Shown: positions 768 through 41,181 of the stretch, piece after piece
Numbering within the stretch: position 1 is the stretch's first letter
Layout: each line of letters opens with the position of its first letter
Assembly: GCA_018824305.1 (NCBI GenBank)
Contig: JAHJGM010000026.1
Location: forward strand, 1-64,000
Origin: a bacterium
Lineage (GTDB): Bacteria > Campylobacterota > Campylobacteria > Campylobacterales > Sulfurimonadaceae
Length of the DNA stretch: 64,000 nt
Direction: 5' to 3'
Notes under the pieces: model-generated
The model's input: only the letters and a program-made list of their open reading frames with translations
What the model was told of the DNA's origin: nothing
Database searches by the model: none
Translations under genes and position numbers: made by a program

Positions 768-2513
768 CTAATTTATTTTGTGATCGAACTCCGGTACCAT
801 CTCTTTTAATTTTGCCAACTTCTCTTTTGTACTTACCAATTCAAAAATATCATTATTCAATTTTTCTAAATCATATTCAGTTCTACCTGCTATTGTTATA
901 GACTCATATTGTGTTTTTGCATCACTATCATCGATTAAAAGCTCTTCATATAGTTTTTCACCTGCTCGAAGCCCAATATACTCTATTTTTATATTATCAT
1001 TACCTGATAAAACAATCATCTTTTTTGCTAAATCTGCTATTTTAACCGGTTCACCCATATCAAGAATAAATATCTCACCACCCTGTCCAATAGCACCTGA
1101 CTGTAACACGAGTTCACAAGCCTCATGTATTAACATAAAATATCTTGTTATATCAGGATGTGTCACTGTTATAGGACCGCCATTTTTTATCTGAACTTTG
1201 AATTTTGGTATTACACTTCCGCTGCTACCTAGAACATTTCCGAACCTTACTGTAATGATTTCTGTATTATTTGCTTTTTTTGAAGAGATTACATTTTGTG
1301 CGTAAAGTTCACAGACTCTCTTAGTCGTTCCCATAACACTTGTCGGTCTAACGGCTTTATCGGTAGAAATCAGAATAAATTTTTTCACATTATGTTCAAT
1401 AGCACAATCGATACTGTTTTTAGTTCCCATGACATTGTTTATGATAGCTTCTGTCATATTTTCTTCTACGAGCGGTACATGTTTATATGCCGCTGCATGT
1501 ATGACTATTTCCGGCTTATATTTTTCAAAAGTCTTGTCTAACAACTCTTTGTTGACTACAGACTGCATTACATGTAGAGGTTTGAAGTTGTCAAGTTCTT
1601 CTGAGATCTTGTATAGATTATATTCACTGTGATCTAAAAGGATTAATTGCTTAGCTCCATATCTTGCGCATTGTCTGCTTATCTCGCTTCCAATACTCCC
1701 GCCGGCACCTGTTATAAGGACTATTTTATTTTTTATGAAATCTTCAATGACATGCTTATCTAAATCTTTAGGGTGTCTTGCAAGAAGATCTTCAACAGAT
1801 ATATTTTTCAACTGTTTCGTAAAACTTTCTTCTCTAAATATTTCATCAAACGAAGGTAAGATTTTAATAGCTTTAAAATATGGGCTAAGCTCATTATATA
1901 TATCTTTTATTCTTTGTTTTGATACAGATGAGATCGTGATGACAAGCAAATCAAGTTTTTTATCTTGTTCTATTTTTTCTTTCAGCTCCTGCATCGAGAC
2001 TATATTGATACCGTCTATTGATCTTTTTTGAAGTATCTTGTCATCATCTAAAAAATATTTTACCTTATATTCACTGTCACGGAACTCTTCTTCAAGCTTC
2101 ATACCGGCTTTTCCGGCTCCATAGATCACTGCTATTTTAGATTTGCTTATTTGACTTTTATTTATGATGTAATAGTATAAATACATAGCGAAATTGATAG
2201 AAAAGAGGTATAAAAACAGTTCTGATGCTAAAAATGCCAACCGGACTATGCCATATAAAATCGGTATATAGACTAAAAAAGCTGCGATATATACGATACT
2301 TTTTATTAAAAATGTTTTTTGTGTAGCCTTACTCCAAGAAAGTGAATAATCTTTAAAGATAAGTCCCGAAGCCAAAATGCGTGTAACCAATACAACTACA
2401 ACTACATAAAGATTAAATGGCATGTGAAAAATAAAAAATGTCCACCAAAAAGTAGCCACTGTCAGTGTTATTATTACTAAAAAATTCAATATTCTCTTGT
2501 CTATTAAAACCAT
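768..2513 (-). CDS. pglF: membrane-bound UDP-HexNAc 4,6-dehydratase (PglF/WbpM/FlaA1 family, long form)
   Basis: Inverting or retaining nucleotide-sugar 4,6-dehydratase, likely making the UDP-4-keto-6-deoxy-HexNAc intermediate from UDP-GlcNAc. The first ~115 residues hold four hydrophobic segments, followed by a CoA-binding-like Rossmann region (YGAGKAG near 130) and the catalytic SDR domain starting at ITGAGGSIGSE (about 265). The motif STDKAVRPTSVMGTTKR has Met-x3-Lys in place of the usual Tyr-x3-Lys, which is normal in this family. Length 581 aa matches WbpM-like long forms. The ATG overlaps the stop of the upstream gene by one base (TAATG). The gene closes a module ordered like Pseudomonas wbpU-V-L-M, so O-antigen synthesis is as likely a role as protein glycosylation. 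Confidence 0.9.
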   Translation of the reverse strand: MVLIDKRILNFLVIITLTVATFWWTFFIFHMPFNLYVVVVVLVTRILASGLIFKDYSLSWSKATQKTFLIKSIVYIAAFLVYIPILYGIVRLAFLASELFLYLFSINFAMYLYYYIINKSQISKSKIAVIYGAGKAGMKLEEEFRDSEYKVKYFLDDDKILQKRSIDGINIVSMQELKEKIEQDKKLDLLVITISSVSKQRIKDIYNELSPYFKAIKILPSFDEIFREESFTKQLKNISVEDLLARHPKDLDKHVIEDFIKNKIVLITGAGGSIGSEISRQCARYGAKQLILLDHSEYNLYKISEELDNFKPLHVMQSVVNKELLDKTFEKYKPEIVIHAAAYKHVPLVEENMTEAIINNVMGTKNSIDCAIEHNVKKFILISTDKAVRPTSVMGTTKRVCELYAQNVISSKKANNTEIITVRFGNVLGSSGSVIPKFKVQIKNGGPITVTHPDITRYFMLIHEACELVLQSGAIGQGGEIFILDMGEPVKIADLAKKMIVLSGNDNIKIEYIGLRAGEKLYEELLIDDSDAKTQYESITIAGRTEYDLEKLNNDIFELVSTKEKLAKLKEMVPEFDHKIN

Positions 2514-3475
2514 TACATAAAAGCCTTTTTTTTATCTATAAACATCATTATCATGTATAGTAATACTAAAGTTACAATAAATGCAACAAATATATTGGAA
2601 ATAAAATATACAAAACCCAATAAAATCATATTAACAAGAATCGAGTACTTTACCGTCTTGCTATGACTCCATCCACTTTGAACAACTCTTTGATAAGCAT
2701 GTTTTTTATGAGCCTGACTCAATTTTTCACCGTTTTTGTATCTTCTAAAAAGCGTCAAAGTTGCATCAAACCAAAATAATCCAAAAAGGATGACCCATGC
2801 CCACAGATCGGTACTTTCTTGATTGGCATAATATATAGTAAATATTGCTATATTGTACCCTAAAAGCGTACTGCCTACATCCCCCATAAATATTTTAGCT
2901 CTCTGCCAGTTCCAGACTAAAAATCCAGATACTGCAAAAGCAAAAACTAAAAAATGTGTTCCGCCAAACAGCAAAAATCCGGCCAATGCCAAAAATATGG
3001 CTTCACTTCCGGCATAACCGTCTATTCCGTCTAAAAAATTATATAGATTTATAAACCAGACAATGAGAAAAAGTGCAAAAAGATTCGTAAAAATCTGATT
3101 TTCGATAACAAATATCCCAAAATTCAGACTATGTAGTCCACCCAAAAGATATAACCCAGATATAGCGATAAAAGTTTGAGCCAATAATCTAATTCTTGCA
3201 CTTAACTCAAAAAGATCATCTATATAAGAAACTGCAGAGATAATCATGCCAAGCATCAGGGGATAAAAAAGATTTTGTTCTATTTGATGGTTGATATAGA
3301 GATAAACAAGCCCTACAAACCAAGTTATGGCAATAGCGATTCCACCGCCGTGAGGCGTCGGGAGAGTGTGACTGCTTCTATCGTTTGGTATATCTATCAA
3401 CGATCTTTTTATCGCATAATTTTTTATAAGATATGTCAGAGTAAAAGAGAGTAAAAATAAAAACAGATAAATCAA
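2513..3475 (-). CDS. polyprenyl-phosphate HexNAc-1-phosphate transferase (WecA/WbpL/MraY family)
   Basis: Polytopic phosphoglycosyl transferase that starts lipid-linked glycan assembly by placing a sugar-1-phosphate on undecaprenyl phosphate. About ten hydrophobic segments cover 320 residues. Family motifs are present in order: DDLFELSARIRL, NFLDGIDGYAGSEA, the metal-binding FMGDVGSTLLGY, and a cytoplasmic KHAYQRV loop. Placement between a WbpV-like reductase gene and the PglF/WbpM-like dehydratase suggests a WbpL-type enzyme using UDP-QuiNAc or UDP-FucNAc. Campylobacter PglC, by contrast, is a small monotopic enzyme of an unrelated fold. The start overlaps the preceding gene by 4 bases. Confidence 0.88.
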   Translation of the reverse strand: MIYLFLFLLSFTLTYLIKNYAIKRSLIDIPNDRSSHTLPTPHGGGIAIAITWFVGLVYLYINHQIEQNLFYPLMLGMIISAVSYIDDLFELSARIRLLAQTFIAISGLYLLGGLHSLNFGIFVIENQIFTNLFALFLIVWFINLYNFLDGIDGYAGSEAIFLALAGFLLFGGTHFLVFAFAVSGFLVWNWQRAKIFMGDVGSTLLGYNIAIFTIYYANQESTDLWAWVILFGLFWFDATLTLFRRYKNGEKLSQAHKKHAYQRVVQSGWSHSKTVKYSILVNMILLGFVYFISNIFVAFIVTLVLLYMIMMFIDKKKAFM

Positions 3476-4329
3476 CTATTTTCTCCCAATATCATCGATT
3501 TTATACCCTCTTCAAGTGAAAAAGGGTTTTTCAGACCAAGTTTCTCTTTTGTGACTCTATTATCGACTTCAAGAGTGCCATAAAGTCTTTTATGAAATGA
3601 TGGTTTTATTATTCTTAAAATAGTTGCAAAAAATGGTATTTTTATAAGAACCATTTTTGTATCAAGATTTTTAGCTATAAGTTTAATAAGCTTCGTAGTG
3701 CTAATCGCTTTATCATCACTAGCCAAAAAAATACCATTAAGTCGCTGTTGTATAACCTCATCTATCATATAAGAAAGATTACCCACATACACAAAACTCC
3801 TTTTATTGGTTATATTACCCAAAGGTATAATCAAAACTTTTTTAACTAATTTCACTAATGAATCTATATTGCCTGGTGCATTTTTTCCATATACCATTGG
3901 AGGCCTAATGATACTTACTACAAACGTTTCATCTTTCAGTTTCAAAAGTTCTTGCTCGGCTTCAAACTTACTTTTCCCATAATGTGTGATAGGGTCACAA
4001 TAACTATTTTCATCAAGTTTTTCAAGTTCTCCACTATAAACTGCAATTGTACTTATAAAAACAAATTGTTTTACCCCATTCTCTTTAGCTTTCTTAGCTA
4101 AATCTAAAGTTTGAACAACATTTACTCTCTTATACTCATGCTTACTTGCTCCATTTATCTGATGAACAAGCGCAGATAGGTGCACTATTGCATCTACATC
4201 CTCAATATGCAAGTTTTTAACATCATCATTTAAAAATGAGAACTTCTGTATATTGTATTTCCTCTTGTACTTATCTATAAAATAACCTCCAATAAAACCA
4301 TTTGCACCTGTAAGTAATATCTTTTTCAA
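3472..4329 (-). CDS. NAD-dependent epimerase/reductase, WbpV-like (probable UDP-4-keto-6-deoxy-HexNAc reductase)
   Basis: Extended SDR of 285 aa. The nucleotide-binding motif is TGANGFIGGYF at the N-terminus, and the catalytic region reads STIAVYSGE followed by YGKSKFEAE (Tyr-x3-Lys). The final ~80 residues vary, as usual for the substrate domain. Its position directly before the WbpL-like transferase and the WbpM-like dehydratase matches wbpV in Pseudomonas O-antigen clusters, which reduces the 4-keto sugar to UDP-QuiNAc. The reaction is inferred from that order; GalE-like epimerisation is the alternative. Translationally coupled to both neighbours by 4-base overlaps. Confidence 0.75.
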   Translation of the reverse strand: MKKILLTGANGFIGGYFIDKYKRKYNIQKFSFLNDDVKNLHIEDVDAIVHLSALVHQINGASKHEYKRVNVVQTLDLAKKAKENGVKQFVFISTIAVYSGELEKLDENSYCDPITHYGKSKFEAEQELLKLKDETFVVSIIRPPMVYGKNAPGNIDSLVKLVKKVLIIPLGNITNKRSFVYVGNLSYMIDEVIQQRLNGIFLASDDKAISTTKLIKLIAKNLDTKMVLIKIPFFATILRIIKPSFHKRLYGTLEVDNRVTKEKLGLKNPFSLEEGIKSMILGENS

Positions 4330-34959: not shown

Positions 34960-36801
34960 ATGAGTACTAAAAATCAATTTCTTTTAATCGTCACGTTAAT
35001 GTTAGCGGCTCTTGCTACGGCAACGATAGTAAATGTGGGTCTCAACTTCAGAGAATTCGCTATAAATGCCGCCGTAGACAAGGCAAAACTAACTGCCAAC
35101 ATAGTAAAAGACGGTCTGACGTCTCATATGGTCAACGGTATTATGGACAAACGTAAATACTTTTTAGACACTATCACTCAAAACAACGAAGTAAAAAAAC
35201 TTTGGATAGCAAGAGGCGAAAACGTTATCGACCAGTATGGCAAAGGTTTTAGCTATGAAAATGCCCGTGATGAGATGGATAGAGAGGTTCTTGCATCGGG
35301 ACAGATGATAAAGACGATTACAGAGAGTCCAGGCACTGTAAATCTTCGTATTACCATTCCGTATAAAGCTGACAGTACGGCTAAGGTAAGCTGTTTAGAA
35401 TGTCATAGTGTAAACGACGGGGCTATCCTAGGCGCGGTCAGTATGGAATTTGATATCAATAACGTCAGAAATGCCAGTACTCTTACAATTTTAAAAATAT
35501 TCGGGATCAATGTTTTATTTATATTTATTGCATTATTCGTATTAAATCATTATATCAAACCATACATGGAGCTTTTTGCTAATCTTAGAGAGGGGATTAA
35601 AAAAGCTCACAGTGGTGATTTCTCTCATAGATTTGATACAAGAGTCTCAGGGGAAGGAAAAGAGGTTGCAGATCAAATAAACACCCTTTTTCATAAGATG
35701 CAGGAGACCTTCGGTGAGATAAAACACAGCTTAGCCACGTTTGTAACAAGATCGAATATCGGATGTTCAGATCCTCTGTTTGAAGCAAAAATAATCATCA
35801 AAGAATTAGCTGATATCTATAAATTTAAAAAGACGATAGAACTTGATGATACAAAAACGCTTGTATATCAAAGAATCATTACCGTTTTACAAACAAAATT
35901 TGACATACATAATTTCTCATTTTTTGAAATCGATAGAATAAATAAGACAAGAGATGCCATATACATCTCCCATAAAAGTTTTTGTGATGCGAATGTAGAT
36001 AAAAATGTAGACTTATGCAGAGCTTACAGGACGGATACAGATATTATTTCTACAGACTTTCCAAATCTATGCAGCAGCTGTCACCATAATCAAGATGAGT
36101 ATGTCTGTATACCTTTTGATATTAACGATGAAGTTTCTTTAACATTAAATATAGTTGTTGAAAATATTACTCAATTTGATCAAGTCAATATGAGTATCAC
36201 AAGTATCAAAAACTATATCGAAGCGGCAAAACCTGTCATAGAGTCGAGAATCTTAACCGATAGACTAAGAGAAACTACTCTAAGAGATGGGATGACAGGT
36301 CTCTATAACAGAAGATTTTTAGAACAATTTATTGACAAGTTGGCAAAACAGGCACTTAGAGATGAAACACACTACAGTGTATTAATGCTTGATATAGATT
36401 ACTTTAAAATGGTCAATGACACTTATGGGCACGATGTGGGTGATATAGTCATCAGAGCACTTTCTGAAGTCATAAAAAAATCCGTAAGAGATGCCGATCT
36501 GGCGATCCGCTACGGTGGAGAAGAGTTTGTTGTCTTGCTGCATAACTCTACAAGAGAAGGCTCGATCGCTGTTGCACAAAAGATCCATGATGAGTTCAAC
36601 AAAATAAAATTCGATCTTAATGGAGAATCTTTACAAAAAACTATCAGTATCGGTATTTCCCAATTTCCAAGTGATGCGAACTCTATCTGGAAAGCTATTA
36701 AGTTCGCCGATACCGCACTATACTATGCAAAAGAGCATGGTAGAAATCAAGTTATAGAGTTCGAAGCAGAGATGTTTGACGGTGAAGGAGATAATTTCTA
36801 A
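34960..36801 (+). CDS. membrane diguanylate cyclase with periplasmic haem c motif (Tll0287-like sensor, HAMP, GGDEF)
   Basis: 613 aa. Membrane segments at about 6-26 and 181-203 enclose an exported sensor with CLECH at residues 145-149, a haem c site typical of Tll0287-like (DUF3365) domains. A HAMP-like linker follows. A cytoplasmic middle domain has Cys353, Cys371, Cys374 and Cys383 (CSSCHH at 371-376). The C-terminal GGDEF domain has GGEEF at 519-523 and an intact inhibitory site Arg510-x-x-Asp513. It should make cyclic di-GMP in response to redox state or a gaseous ligand (inference). AGGA lies 5 bases before the ATG. It ends in a strong hairpin and faces the CydA-like operon. Confidence 0.85.
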   Translation: MSTKNQFLLIVTLMLAALATATIVNVGLNFREFAINAAVDKAKLTANIVKDGLTSHMVNGIMDKRKYFLDTITQNNEVKKLWIARGENVIDQYGKGFSYENARDEMDREVLASGQMIKTITESPGTVNLRITIPYKADSTAKVSCLECHSVNDGAILGAVSMEFDINNVRNASTLTILKIFGINVLFIFIALFVLNHYIKPYMELFANLREGIKKAHSGDFSHRFDTRVSGEGKEVADQINTLFHKMQETFGEIKHSLATFVTRSNIGCSDPLFEAKIIIKELADIYKFKKTIELDDTKTLVYQRIITVLQTKFDIHNFSFFEIDRINKTRDAIYISHKSFCDANVDKNVDLCRAYRTDTDIISTDFPNLCSSCHHNQDEYVCIPFDINDEVSLTLNIVVENITQFDQVNMSITSIKNYIEAAKPVIESRILTDRLRETTLRDGMTGLYNRRFLEQFIDKLAKQALRDETHYSVLMLDIDYFKMVNDTYGHDVGDIVIRALSEVIKKSVRDADLAIRYGGEEFVVLLHNSTREGSIAVAQKIHDEFNKIKFDLNGESLQKTISIGISQFPSDANSIWKAIKFADTALYYAKEHGRNQVIEFEAEMFDGEGDNF

Positions 36802-36999: not shown

Positions 37000-38199
37000 C
37001 TATACTAATGTATTTTTAAAGAGCGTAAACATGCCCCATGCAAAGTAAATGCCCATCCACGCAACCAAAATCCATAAGGTGGCCGTTCCTAGAACACGCG
37101 TTAATTTGTCATTTTGTCCGTCAAAGACAGTACCTTCATTTTTACCGACTTTCCACGCCATTCTTAATATAAATGCCACGCCCGTGACTCCCAAGAATAA
37201 AAATGTAAGAAGAAACATGATGGTACTTGGCCAATCGATATTCATCGTATATGTATAAATATTGTATCCGTGATCTGCCATTAAGTTATAGCGAATGATC
37301 TCACGGACTCCAGAAATAAGTAAAGCCACAACAACCAATACAACAGTTGTTATATAACTATTTTTATTCATTTTTGCCATCAACAACAATACCACGACAC
37401 CTGCAATGGTCGCTAAAGAGATAACACTCAAAAGCATATTTTCTTGTAGCATCCAAAGGATAAATAGAACGGCACTTACAAGTAATCCGCCCACAGCTGT
37501 CTTCGTACCAAGTTTTTTTGTGAATTCGATGTATTTACTAGTAAAATCTTTTCTAGTGCTCAAAAAATCACTGTAATTTTGTAAGAAAATTCCAAGTACG
37601 GGTATAACTAAACTCACCATAAATGCGAGTCTTATAAGATCATAGTGGAAATTAAGCCCTGAAGTATCAACAACACCATTTGGAGCATACCATGCAAGCC
37701 ATTTATCTGGTTGGATCGATTCTACAGCAAAGTTATGCATCAATACACCACAAAAAACAAGTATGGCAAACGATATCGTACCGATTAAAGTATTACTAGC
37801 TCTTCCTGCTTTATTGGCATAATAGTACCAATAATACATCAAATATCCAACAATAAGTGCGTAGATAAAAATAAATATCCATATTCCTGAAAGCGCATTT
37901 GTAGTGTACCAATTTGGATCATAGATAACCTGTGTAAACAGTAACGGTGCTACACCAAGAACAATTAAAATTGAAATACTGAGCTTACCCGTTTGAATTA
38001 AATGCGGTGTCAGTAATTTCCAGTTTGAGTCGCTTTTTTGCTGTGTACTTCCATAAATGGAAAGCCCCATACTGCCCAGTGCTAAGAGCACAAAAGCAAT
38101 ATGTAAAGCCCATGTTAAAACATAAAGTCCTTGAAAAACCACAGGATAAAAAGGAACTCCGGCGGGATCTCTTAGTAAATTTAAAATAGTTGCATCCAT
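37000..38199 (-). CDS. CydA-superfamily membrane protein without cytochrome c domain (CydA'-like paralogue)
   Basis: 399 aa with about nine hydrophobic segments. It is a paralogue of the gene just upstream. Compare LHIAFVLLALGSMGLSIYG with IHVLFSHTSVGAAILFAFL, and FHYDLIRLAFMVSLVIPVLG with FPHMFLRIGFMIMMSAVIGI. His residues at the head of both segments are kept, as expected for haem b ligands of the CydA family. It has no CxxCH and no clear Q-loop. AAGGAGT precedes the ATG at ideal spacing, and the gap from the upstream gene is 9 bases. It may replace CydB as the second subunit, as in CydAA'-type enzymes. That is inference. Confidence 0.6.
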   Translation of the reverse strand: MDATILNLLRDPAGVPFYPVVFQGLYVLTWALHIAFVLLALGSMGLSIYGSTQQKSDSNWKLLTPHLIQTGKLSISILIVLGVAPLLFTQVIYDPNWYTTNALSGIWIFIFIYALIVGYLMYYWYYYANKAGRASNTLIGTISFAILVFCGVLMHNFAVESIQPDKWLAWYAPNGVVDTSGLNFHYDLIRLAFMVSLVIPVLGIFLQNYSDFLSTRKDFTSKYIEFTKKLGTKTAVGGLLVSAVLFILWMLQENMLLSVISLATIAGVVVLLLMAKMNKNSYITTVVLVVVALLISGVREIIRYNLMADHGYNIYTYTMNIDWPSTIMFLLTFLFLGVTGVAFILRMAWKVGKNEGTVFDGQNDKLTRVLGTATLWILVAWMGIYFAWGMFTLFKNTLV

Positions 38200-38208
38200 A
38201 TCGACTCC

Positions 38209-39549
38209 TTATTTATTTTTTTCTACAAGCCATGTAGCGATGGCGTCATATTCATCATCCGGCAAGACGATTTTAGGCATGTAAGGAACGCTACCTGTTC
38301 CTATTACATCTTTCATATAGCTTACAAGTGCCCCTTTATCGTTCATTGGGAACAATTTGCTAAGAGGACGATACTTACCGTTTTTATCCAATGAATGACA
38401 GTTTGAGCACGCCATTTTTGCTAACAATTCCCCTGCTTGAAGTTTATTTTCAGGTGTAATGACGCGAAGACTTTCTGGGACAAAAGGTGATACTTTCAGT
38501 AAACCATTTTTAGCTACGACTTCGACTTCACTTTTAATCCCTTTGCCGGGAACGTCTCTACCGATTATTTGATTACTATAAATATATTGACCAGCGACAA
38601 ATGGTTTACGAAGCGATTCTCTTAATTTTTCTCCGGGCCATAATCCTGCTACAAGAATGACCACAATCATACTTGCTGCCAAGCTCTTATGAATCCATGT
38701 AGGTTTAAAGATAGCAAGAGCAAAATAAGCGGTAAATACACCGGTAAGAATAAGACGACTCATAATAATACCAGGTAGCAATCTACTCAATAGTACATGT
38801 GAACTCTCTGGAAGTGTATTGATGTACCACATAAAGAAAAAGAGGGTCATAAAGCCTCCAAAAATAGCTACAACTCCCATCTTTTTCGTCAACTCTTGAG
38901 CTAAAGGAGGATTTTCCTTTTTCATAGCACTGGCAATAAATATACCAATAACTGCTGACATCATAATCATAAAACCAATACGTAGGAACATATGAGGGAA
39001 AGTATTTACGCCAAAAAATGCATCACTAGCAGAGCCTGTTGTAAAATATGCGTCGGCTCCTGGCCACATCATAAAGCTAATAATACCAATTATGAGAGCT
39101 AATGTACCTACAGATGCAAGAGCGAACGTATAGGTTAACTTTAGATGTGTTTTACGATCAATCTTGCCAATAAAGTAAACAAGAGCAAAAACTCCGATTA
39201 CTTCATACACGAAGAATACCCATTCGGTCGCCCAAACCCATACAAAATTATGGATCAATGCACTAATACCTCTGGGACTGGCTGCTGTTGCCGTATACCA
39301 AATACCCGGTCCTGTAATAGAACCTAAAACATATGAAAAAATCAGTAAAAACATACCATACTTTTTCATATATACATACAGATCTGCTCTGTCTTCTTTA
39401 TAAGCCTTGTGTGCTAAAAAAGCAAACAATATGGCTGCTCCGACAGATGTATGTGAAAATAGAACGTGTATCGTACCGGTTATTCCCATTAACCATGCTG
39501 TACCAAATTCTGGAAAATAAAAGACGGGAAAAAGCCCTAACATATCCAT
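38209..39549 (-). CDS. CydA-superfamily oxidase-like subunit with C-terminal cytochrome c domain
   Basis: 446 aa from the ATG at 39549, which follows TAAGGAG at 6 bases. An upstream in-frame extension to 39615 has no ribosome-binding site. About nine hydrophobic segments lead to a soluble C-terminus with CSNCHSLDKNGKY (haem c, residues 381-385) and a Met-bearing SVPYMPKI. CydA-like marks: TIHVLFSHTSVGAA (His of the first helix), ATEWVFFVYEV with two Glu one helical stretch apart, and FPHMFLRIGF. This suggests a bd-type reductase fed by cytochrome c or passing electrons through it. Oxygen and nitric oxide are both possible substrates. Confidence 0.65.
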   Translation of the reverse strand: MDMLGLFPVFYFPEFGTAWLMGITGTIHVLFSHTSVGAAILFAFLAHKAYKEDRADLYVYMKKYGMFLLIFSYVLGSITGPGIWYTATAASPRGISALIHNFVWVWATEWVFFVYEVIGVFALVYFIGKIDRKTHLKLTYTFALASVGTLALIIGIISFMMWPGADAYFTTGSASDAFFGVNTFPHMFLRIGFMIMMSAVIGIFIASAMKKENPPLAQELTKKMGVVAIFGGFMTLFFFMWYINTLPESSHVLLSRLLPGIIMSRLILTGVFTAYFALAIFKPTWIHKSLAASMIVVILVAGLWPGEKLRESLRKPFVAGQYIYSNQIIGRDVPGKGIKSEVEVVAKNGLLKVSPFVPESLRVITPENKLQAGELLAKMACSNCHSLDKNGKYRPLSKLFPMNDKGALVSYMKDVIGTGSVPYMPKIVLPDDEYDAIATWLVEKNK

Positions 39550-39595
39550 GAAATTCTCCTTAAGATAAAATTTATTGTGTAAGTCATACGTAGTG

Positions 39596-39614
39596 TGAAT
39601 ATTGAAAATATTCA
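39596..39614 (-). promoter_or_regulatory. inverted repeat upstream of the CydA-like operon (possible operator)
   Basis: TGAATATT GAA AATATTCA, an 8-bp perfect repeat with a 3-base centre, ends about 47 bases before the chosen start codon. Size and position fit a dimeric regulator site. No regulator can be named. Confidence 0.4.
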
Positions 39615-39751
39615 TATATCTATTACACTAAAAGTATCTGCTGAGTTTTTGAGAATATACTTTCAGTAAAAATAGAGATGTTGGCGCGGAAACATCGAAG
39701 AAATAGTTATAAAATTTGCTATAATTCTGACGTTGTTACGCAACACTTTTT

Positions 39752-39804
39752 CCGTCTGCTTGAGAGCTGCAATTTTCATAGCAGACGGATCATCTTTGAT
39801 CCCC
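39752..39804. other. structured intergenic element of unknown function
   Basis: CCGTCTGCT (39752-39760) pairs with AGCAGACGG (39780-39788). Right after it GGATCA TCTT TGATCC (39787-39802) forms a second, overlapping stem. Neither stem is followed by a T-run, so a simple terminator is unlikely. The gap 39550-40002 (453 bases) holds no ORF; apart from this element it contains the repeat at 39596 and the hairpin at 39969. A structured leader of the CydA-like transcript is possible. It does not match the riboswitch families I checked by eye (TPP, cyclic di-GMP type I, cobalamin). Confidence 0.35.
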
Positions 39805-39968
39805 TTATAACTTTTTTCCTCCTTACCTTATGATAAATATAAGATACTATTAACGCATTATGTCTATGGATTGTTAATTTTGTGTTAATTATGATTTATA
39901 AAGTTAAATTTATTTTATTATTGTGTAAAGTAGTTTTGAAGAATATTTTTAGAAGAAATAGACTGCTT

Positions 39969-39994
39969 CCTTACATGTAGAGTTACATGTAAGG
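39969..39994 (-). terminator. hairpin after mrp built from two TACATGTA palindromes
   Basis: CCTTACATGTA (39969-39979), loop GAGT, TACATGTAAGG (39984-39994): an 11-bp stem beginning 8 bases after the mrp stop codon. No T-run follows on the minus strand, so it may protect the 3' end or work with a factor instead of terminating alone. Each arm is itself palindromic. Confidence 0.5.
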
Positions 39995-40002
39995 ATTAAA
40001 AA

Positions 40003-41181
40003 TTAGTGACAACCACATCCTGTGCCGCAGCTTTCAGAACTTTGTTTTGCATTCTCAGGCTGTTTTGGAGCAGCTGCAGTTGAGCAAGCACTTACTCCCG
40101 GAGGTGTATTTGGCTGAATAGCTTGATTGTCTACTCCGCCCTCTTCGTTTATCTTTTCTATCATAGCCCATACTTTTTCAGCAGCAGCCATGTAACGTTT
40201 TGCAGTCTCACTTGTAGGTACTGCATAAGTGATAGGTTTACCCTCATCTCCACCTGTTCTCACAGCAGGTTCTATCGGGATCTCAGCTACGATAGTCGTG
40301 TTGAACTCATCTGCCATCGGCTGAGTAGTGCCTTTACCGAAGATATCGTACTCGACACCAGTATCCGGAGCGATAAATCCGCTCATGTTTTCAATGATAC
40401 CGGCTATTGGGATATTCAATTTTTTGAACATATCTAATGAACGGCGTGAATCATCAAGTGAAACCATTTGAGGCGTAGTCACTGTCAGACCTGCAGTCAC
40501 AGGAACACTTTGAGCCAATGTCAACTGAGCATCACCTGTTCCAGGAGGCATATCGATAACTAAGACATCCAATTCACTCCATAAGATATCGCGTAAGAAC
40601 TGCTCGATCGCTTTCATGATCATAGCACCACGCCAGATAAGTGACTGTCCCTCTTCCATAAGAGAACCCATAGACATCATCTCTATTCCGTATGCTTTTA
40701 TCGGAAGGACTTTGTTCCCGTTTATTTCAGGTTTGATCCCTTCTACCCCGAGCATTCTAGGTACATTCGGTCCATAAATATCAGCATCTAAAAGACCTAC
40801 TTTTTTGCCCTGCATAGCAAGAGCAATAGCGATATTTACCGATGTAGTCGATTTACCGACTCCGCCTTTTCCTGAGCTTACCATCAAGAAGTTTTTTACT
40901 TGAGGTGCTATGTTTTTACCGCGAGATGAACTCTCTCTTGGCATCTTTGGAGCATTGATATTGATGTTGATGTCAGTTGCCCCGATAGATTTCAGTTCTC
41001 TAGCAGCATCATCTCTTATCTGCGCGGCTACTTCAGGTGCACTAGATGTGATGTCTACGGATAAACTCACTGCAGTTCCGTTTATGTTGATGTTATTTAC
41101 AAATCCAAAAGTCACGATATCTTTGGTAAAACCAGGATATAGTACTTTTGAAAGTGCTGATTTTATAATTTCTTCAGTCAT
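40003..41181 (-). CDS. mrp: Mrp/ApbC P-loop iron-sulfur carrier
   Basis: 392 aa. N-terminal MIP18-like (DUF59) domain of ~90 residues, then VSSGKGGVGKSTTSVNIAIA (deviant Walker A), DIYGPNVPRML, and MPPGTGDAQLTLAQ. Binds and delivers Fe-S clusters to apoproteins in the cytoplasm. The CxxC used by most relatives is not obvious in the core. The C-terminus instead ends in a Cys-rich tail (SCGTGCGCH). AGGAAAA precedes the ATG. It follows thiC by 133 bases; ThiC itself is a 4Fe-4S enzyme. Confidence 0.92.
   Translation of the reverse strand: MTEEIIKSALSKVLYPGFTKDIVTFGFVNNININGTAVSLSVDITSSAPEVAAQIRDDAARELKSIGATDINININAPKMPRESSSRGKNIAPQVKNFLMVSSGKGGVGKSTTSVNIAIALAMQGKKVGLLDADIYGPNVPRMLGVEGIKPEINGNKVLPIKAYGIEMMSMGSLMEEGQSLIWRGAMIMKAIEQFLRDILWSELDVLVIDMPPGTGDAQLTLAQSVPVTAGLTVTTPQMVSLDDSRRSLDMFKKLNIPIAGIIENMSGFIAPDTGVEYDIFGKGTTQPMADEFNTTIVAEIPIEPAVRTGGDEGKPITYAVPTSETAKRYMAAAEKVWAMIEKINEEGGVDNQAIQPNTPPGVSACSTAAAPKQPENAKQSSESCGTGCGCH

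Follow-up and report, generated by a model that had tools for sequence, protein, structure and literature searches.

The two genes described here probably encode the subunits of a terminal oxidase that belongs to the cytochrome bd superfamily, contains no copper and is fed by a periplasmic cytochrome c. The genes, here called A and B, belong to a sulfur-bacterium-like genome and lie in the window, by which we mean the whole 64,000-nucleotide stretch of DNA that was analysed. The first specifies a relative of CydA ending in a cytochrome c domain and the second a paralogue of the first:

38209..39549, reverse strand: gene A with its stop codon, encoding a membrane protein of the CydA superfamily; open reading frame with Shine-Dalgarno site, PF01654 family matches, AlphaFold model
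37000..38199, reverse strand: gene B with its stop codon, encoding a paralogous membrane protein where CydB would be expected; open reading frame with Shine-Dalgarno site, match to the A profile, AlphaFold model

The A-B gene pair

The A protein (446 amino acids) has eight predicted membrane helices, followed by a cytochrome c domain with a CSNCH motif. The B protein (399 amino acids) is devoid of a haem-c motif. A comes first, and the two genes are separated by 9 bp; their ATG codons, at 39549 and 38199, are each preceded by AAGGAG. An mrp-like ATPase gene is found 453 bp upstream of the pair on the same strand. Database records of relatives label the two genes 'cytochrome c' and 'hypothetical protein'.

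In a genome of the same genus (L029), the site after mrp is occupied by a divergent pair (31-1164 and 1492-4064; about 30% and 26% identical, both with CXXCH). Compared with positions 37000-41181 of the window, one pair seems to have taken the place of another there.

Downstream of B lies a convergent gene for a diguanylate cyclase whose presumed periplasmic part contains a CLECH motif. An earlier note on this DNA had suggested that this facing haem-c protein might sense the same chemistry as the pair. That linkage was rejected, since GGDEF genes occur in the flanks of 3 of 80 loci and in none of them are they arranged as in the window. The cyclase gene itself (34960-36801) encodes two CXXCH motifs, at residues 145 and 371, one in what is presumed to be a periplasmic sensor domain, flanked by two membrane helices, and the other past the second helix; the sensor part bears a weak likeness to the Tll0287-like family (E=0.29). 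A stand-alone Tll0287-like CXXCH protein, a possible haem sensor, is encoded just upstream of A in Halothiobacillus (L118, 3114-3686).

Membership in the cytochrome bd superfamily

That A and B are paralogous CydA-like proteins, as the earlier note had proposed, is borne out at several levels. Pairwise BLASTP aligns them over 157 amino acids with E=6e-4, beyond chance, and the profiles of the two families align over 208 columns with E=3e-5. The latter alignment places A H28 on B H33, in the His-led first helix that had been noticed before, and R190 of A on R190 of B; all these residues are invariant across 53-55 homologues. The BLASTP alignment begins at the helix motifs quoted in the earlier note (FPHMFLRIGF in A, FHYDLIRLAF in B), but their histidine is not invariant (A H186, 73%; B H185, 83%).

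The Pfam CydA model (PF01654) matches neither protein alone, nor anything in the whole genome, and family-level searches were therefore used. At that level it matches 41 of the 55 A homologues at E<=0.01 (best 6.1e-11), and in three genomes the match lies above the curated cut-off. The B family is not matched by PF01654; B is tied to CydA via the A profile and the fold only. A PDB sequence search with the family profiles returned cytochrome c domains only for A and nothing for B. With hhalign, comparison against a narrow CydA set was weak and partly misregistered, and an HMM of narrow CydA scope brought no improvement. A wider CydA profile proved usable.

The AlphaFold models of A (pLDDT 80, pTM 0.79) and B (pLDDT 88, pTM 0.85) were compared with the PDB by Foldseek. 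The top 16 matches of A (best E 4.8e-5) and the top 14 of B (best E 4.4e-5) are all CydA or CydB chains of bd oxidases. Chains of alternative complex III come low in both lists, with E about 0.1 as against about 5e-5 for the bd oxidases. In a maximum-likelihood tree, A (98/91), B (100/98) and CydA (100/100) form three supported clades. The branches joining these groups are long, so that their mutual order is not to be trusted. The same deep split is seen within A and within B, separating the Agrobacterium-plasmid pair and divergent Campylobacterota from Thermus and the main group; the duplication into A and B therefore seems older than this split. The fold prediction and the CydA tree had both been proposed as checks, and in both the two proteins stay within the superfamily. 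Judged from sequence profiles and predicted folds, A and B are both members of the cytochrome bd superfamily.

No CydB-like gene follows the pair, as had been remarked, and none exceeds the family cut-off anywhere in the genome; a single sub-cut-off match lies beside cbb3 genes. CydC was uninformative as a marker of bd assembly, just general ABC transporters below the cut-off being found in the genome.

Predicted haem ligands of A and B

The residues and domains of the A protein that bear on its function are the following:

39466..39468, reverse strand: A H28, corresponding to CydA H19, a ligand of the active-site haem; HMM alignment with CydA, invariant
39202..39225, reverse strand: A E109 to E116, whose end residues correspond to CydA E99 and E107 of the haem pocket and the proton path; HMM alignment, both invariant
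38602..38619, reverse strand: A E311-x-x-R314-K-P316, proposed counterpart of CydA E445-x-G-R448-Q-P450 with its haem b595 ligand; similar motif where helix 8 ends
38215..38445, reverse strand: cytochrome c domain of A, residues 369-445; PF13442 at 1e-5, aligns with cytochrome c-551/552
38395..38409, reverse strand: CSNCH haem-c attachment, A residues 381-385; invariant in 55 homologues
38278..38280, reverse strand: A M424, probable sixth haem c ligand; 96% conserved, placed where domains of the cytochrome c-551 type have their YMP

H28, E109, E116, E311, R314, K315, P316 and the CXXCH motif are all invariant in the 55 homologues. In the HMM alignment, the reference of which is E. coli CydA, E116 falls on E107 and E109 pairs with E99 past a gap of one residue. 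The helix-3 glutamates of A are thus 7 residues apart as against 8 in E. coli CydA. The E99/E107 helix of the E. coli protein contains an inserted leucine that is absent from the Geobacillus enzyme (PMC8951039). A E311 is probably the equivalent of CydA E445, a likeness that lies in the motif and the order of helices rather than in an HMM or structure alignment.

The quinol side of A is different. H186, which likely occupies the position of the b558 histidine, is His in 73% and Gln in 27% of homologues, and the homologue alignment reveals no conserved methionine in helix 7; the b558 ligands of CydA, H186 and M393, are therefore not kept. The link between helices 6 and 7 is about 3 residues long and the Q-loop is missing. 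Taken together, these features indicate that the quinol-side haem b558 and the Q-loop appear to have been lost from A.

Fewer of these positions are recognised in B:

38101..38103, reverse strand: B H33, equivalent of A H28 and CydA H19; profile alignment with A, invariant
37291..37302, reverse strand: B E300-x-x-R303, candidate for a second haem site in B; E300 invariant, R303 98%

The helix-8 stretch R299-E300-x-x-R303 of B resembles CydA E445xGR448QP in its motif, not by HMM or structure alignment. The helix-3 glutamates are missing from B. From these residues, B may be haem-bearing, at H33 and E300. The earlier note had asked whether the haem ligands are conserved: A retains H28, E109, E116 and probably E311, and B retains the helix-1 histidine and the helix-8 ExxR but not the helix-3 glutamates.

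Distribution, co-inheritance and operon context

Matches to the pair were found in 26 of 249 genomes sampled from the phylum. Two of these (L031 and L032) were discarded as partial matches in unrelated or broken frames, leaving 24 real cases, 22 close and 2 divergent. A scan of public genomes yielded 237 relatives, of which 80 loci were kept, about 44 from Campylobacterota and 36 from elsewhere, the latter mainly Pseudomonadota together with three Methylacidiphilaceae-type loci.

B adjoins A in 79 of the 79 loci with enough contig, with a median gap of 9 bp. Distances among A proteins and among B proteins are tightly correlated (r=0.973 over 77 pairs, equalled in 0 of 2000 permutations; 0.91-0.96 within groups). 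Constant adjacency and co-inheritance, both read from sequence, strongly suggest that A and B form a complex.

Outside Campylobacterota, 29 of 33 loci have a gene, starting 0-83 bp past B, for a short CXXCH protein whose N-terminal stretch is signal-like; three of the four exceptions are Methylacidiphilaceae-type. Campylobacterota loci, the window among them, mostly do without this extra cytochrome c gene. L117 and L126-L128 also have a flavocytochrome c sulfide dehydrogenase (FCSD)-type flavoprotein, which Pfam confirmed in L117 and L127 and which is followed by larger cytochromes c. In L082 a bc1 operon directly precedes the pair; it encodes a Rieske-like protein, cytochrome b, a protein like cytochrome c1 and a small protein with CXXCH. 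A further conserved-neighbour cluster (c4) was rejected as antisense open reading frames in GC-rich DNA. In Thiomicrorhabdus heinhorstiae (L126, L128), the cluster A-B-cytochrome c-FCSD-cytochrome c occurs twice in tandem.

Several loci have neighbours related to metals or regulation. On the Methylosinus plasmid pMSC49c (L132, 7001-15323), A, B and the cytochrome c gene are followed by genes for a histidine kinase and a response regulator, and genes for methanobactin (copper uptake) are nearby; a two-component pair also follows in the Agrobacterium plasmid locus (L134). CobW-type GTPase genes lie near the pair in L115 (4072-5749), L116 (1864-3048) and L133 (9352-10631), accompanied in the first, from Thiomicrorhabdus, by a Fur-family regulator; those on the Thermus plasmid are 'GTP-binding protein' genes. 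The CobW-type and Fur neighbours hint at metal limitation. A role under copper shortage would suit a copper-free oxidase, but the methanobactin, CobW and Fur neighbours provide only a lead in that direction.

The host genome also encodes aa3-type and cbb3-type oxidases, typed by eye from their sequences. A bc1 cytochrome b was not found in the host assembly, which consists of 71 contigs. Since bc1 is present in 30 of 31 good genomes of the host family, true absence was set aside, and the missing bc1 is probably an assembly gap.

Electron donor and substrate

Genes for cytochrome c, bc1 and FCSD are the partners expected of a cytochrome c oxidase, and the donor is therefore inferred to lean to cytochrome c; the substrate leans to O2. 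The pair might instead use electrons from cytochrome c to reduce a different small molecule (nitric oxide and hydrogen peroxide are examples), for detoxification or respiration. With aa3 and cbb3 oxidases already present, a further O2 reductase is not strictly needed by the host, and bd oxidases are able to handle both compounds. We nevertheless consider this unlikely, as the residues of the O2-reducing site and of the proton path are invariant, the bc1 operon joined to the pair in L082 looks respiratory, and genes of NO metabolism were not seen among the neighbours.

Slightly less probable still is that A-B resembles other bd oxidases in being a quinol:O2 oxidoreductase, with the cytochrome c domain serving just as an extra electron buffer. 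Archaeal CydAA' uses quinol and likewise does without CydB. According to a 2021 review, every bd oxidase characterised biochemically by then is a quinol oxidase, and an enzyme with another donor was still to be characterised (PMC8509429). Against this stand the missing Q-loop with its helix 6-7 link reduced to a few residues, the b558 ligands that are not kept and the cytochrome c, bc1 and FCSD genes next to the pair. Electron exchange between cytochrome c and quinone without O2 reduction, in the manner of alternative complex III or in reverse, is very improbable: a similar role has been suggested for the Nitrospina bd-like protein (PMC3578206) and alternative complex III chains do appear low in the Foldseek lists, but bd oxidases score far better there, A keeps the active-site residues and no quinone site was recognised.

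Relation to known enzymes

Canonical CydAB (qOR) has in common with A the fold, the helix-1 histidine, the helix-3 glutamate pair and probably the helix-8 glutamate. It differs in having the Q-loop, the low-spin b558 with its His/Met ligands, CydB and a quinol donor; in our pair the Q-loop is absent, the b558 ligands are not conserved and the second gene is a paralogue of A, not CydB. The cbb3 oxidase (CcoNOP) resembles A-B in the overall reaction proposed, and A and CcoP have similar c domains, but the catalytic subunit of cbb3 is unrelated and contains copper.

Archaeal CydAA' (Caldivirga) is, like A-B, a complex of two superfamily paralogues without CydB. However, it is a quinol oxidase with no fused cytochrome c, whereas the neighbourhoods of A-B point to cytochrome c. 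The comparison with CydAA' and cytochrome-c-bearing branches drawn in the earlier note fits as regards the paralogous, cytochrome-c-linked bd branches, with the archaeal enzyme probably differing from A-B in its donor. The OR-C family of Murali, Gennis and Hemp (2021) is said to comprise a CydA-superfamily protein without a quinol site, linked to cytochrome c and having a paralogous partner. A-B resembles this description in each of these traits.

Papers citing Murali 2021 distinguish three bd families. One, qOR, has a quinol site; for the other two, OR-C and OR-N, the presumed donor is cytochrome c or something else. The OR-N CydAA' of Nitrospira and Nitrospinota is described as two CydA paralogues, presumed to form one complex, without a quinol site and with cytochrome c as presumed donor (PMC10839748, PMC12342949), and in each of these respects it is like A-B. 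The Nitrospina bd-like protein has 14 predicted helices and lies among nitrite oxidoreductase genes (PMC3578206), unlike A with its eight helices and fused cytochrome c domain and its relatives accompanied by bc1 or sulfide dehydrogenase genes. The best reading is that A-B resembles the OR-C and OR-N branches, beside which it is set by description. Because it lacks the distinguishing features of qOR and fits the description of OR-C/OR-N, the pair is a new, unusually well-contexted example of a bd kind that has been described but not characterised.

Proposed mechanism and significance

As a cytochrome c oxidase, the A-B pair would work as follows. A soluble periplasmic cytochrome c would receive electrons from the bc1 complex or from sulfur-oxidising enzymes and deliver them to the haem c domain of A. 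From there they would pass to two haems in the helix bundle of A, around H28, E109 and E311, where O2 would be reduced to water with cytoplasmic protons arriving past E116 and E109. B would be the obligate partner in the place of CydB, possibly holding a haem of its own at H33 and E300. The haem types, the haem content of B and the charge separation are all inferred.

More tentatively, A-B may be a copper-free complex IV, that is, a bd-superfamily cytochrome c oxidase with haems in both paralogues (H28/E311 in A, H33/E300 in B) arranged as a pseudo-symmetric pair, and used when copper is scarce or when haem-copper oxidases are poisoned by sulfide.

The pair is compact, and relatives occur in named isolates of Sulfurospirillum, Arcobacter, Hyphomicrobium and Paraburkholderia. 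The operons of these relatives name the likely donor: the small secreted cytochrome c, the bc1 complex or flavocytochrome c sulfide dehydrogenase. The pair thereby makes the standing prediction of a non-quinol donor directly testable, and it would offer a second, copper-free form of complex IV.
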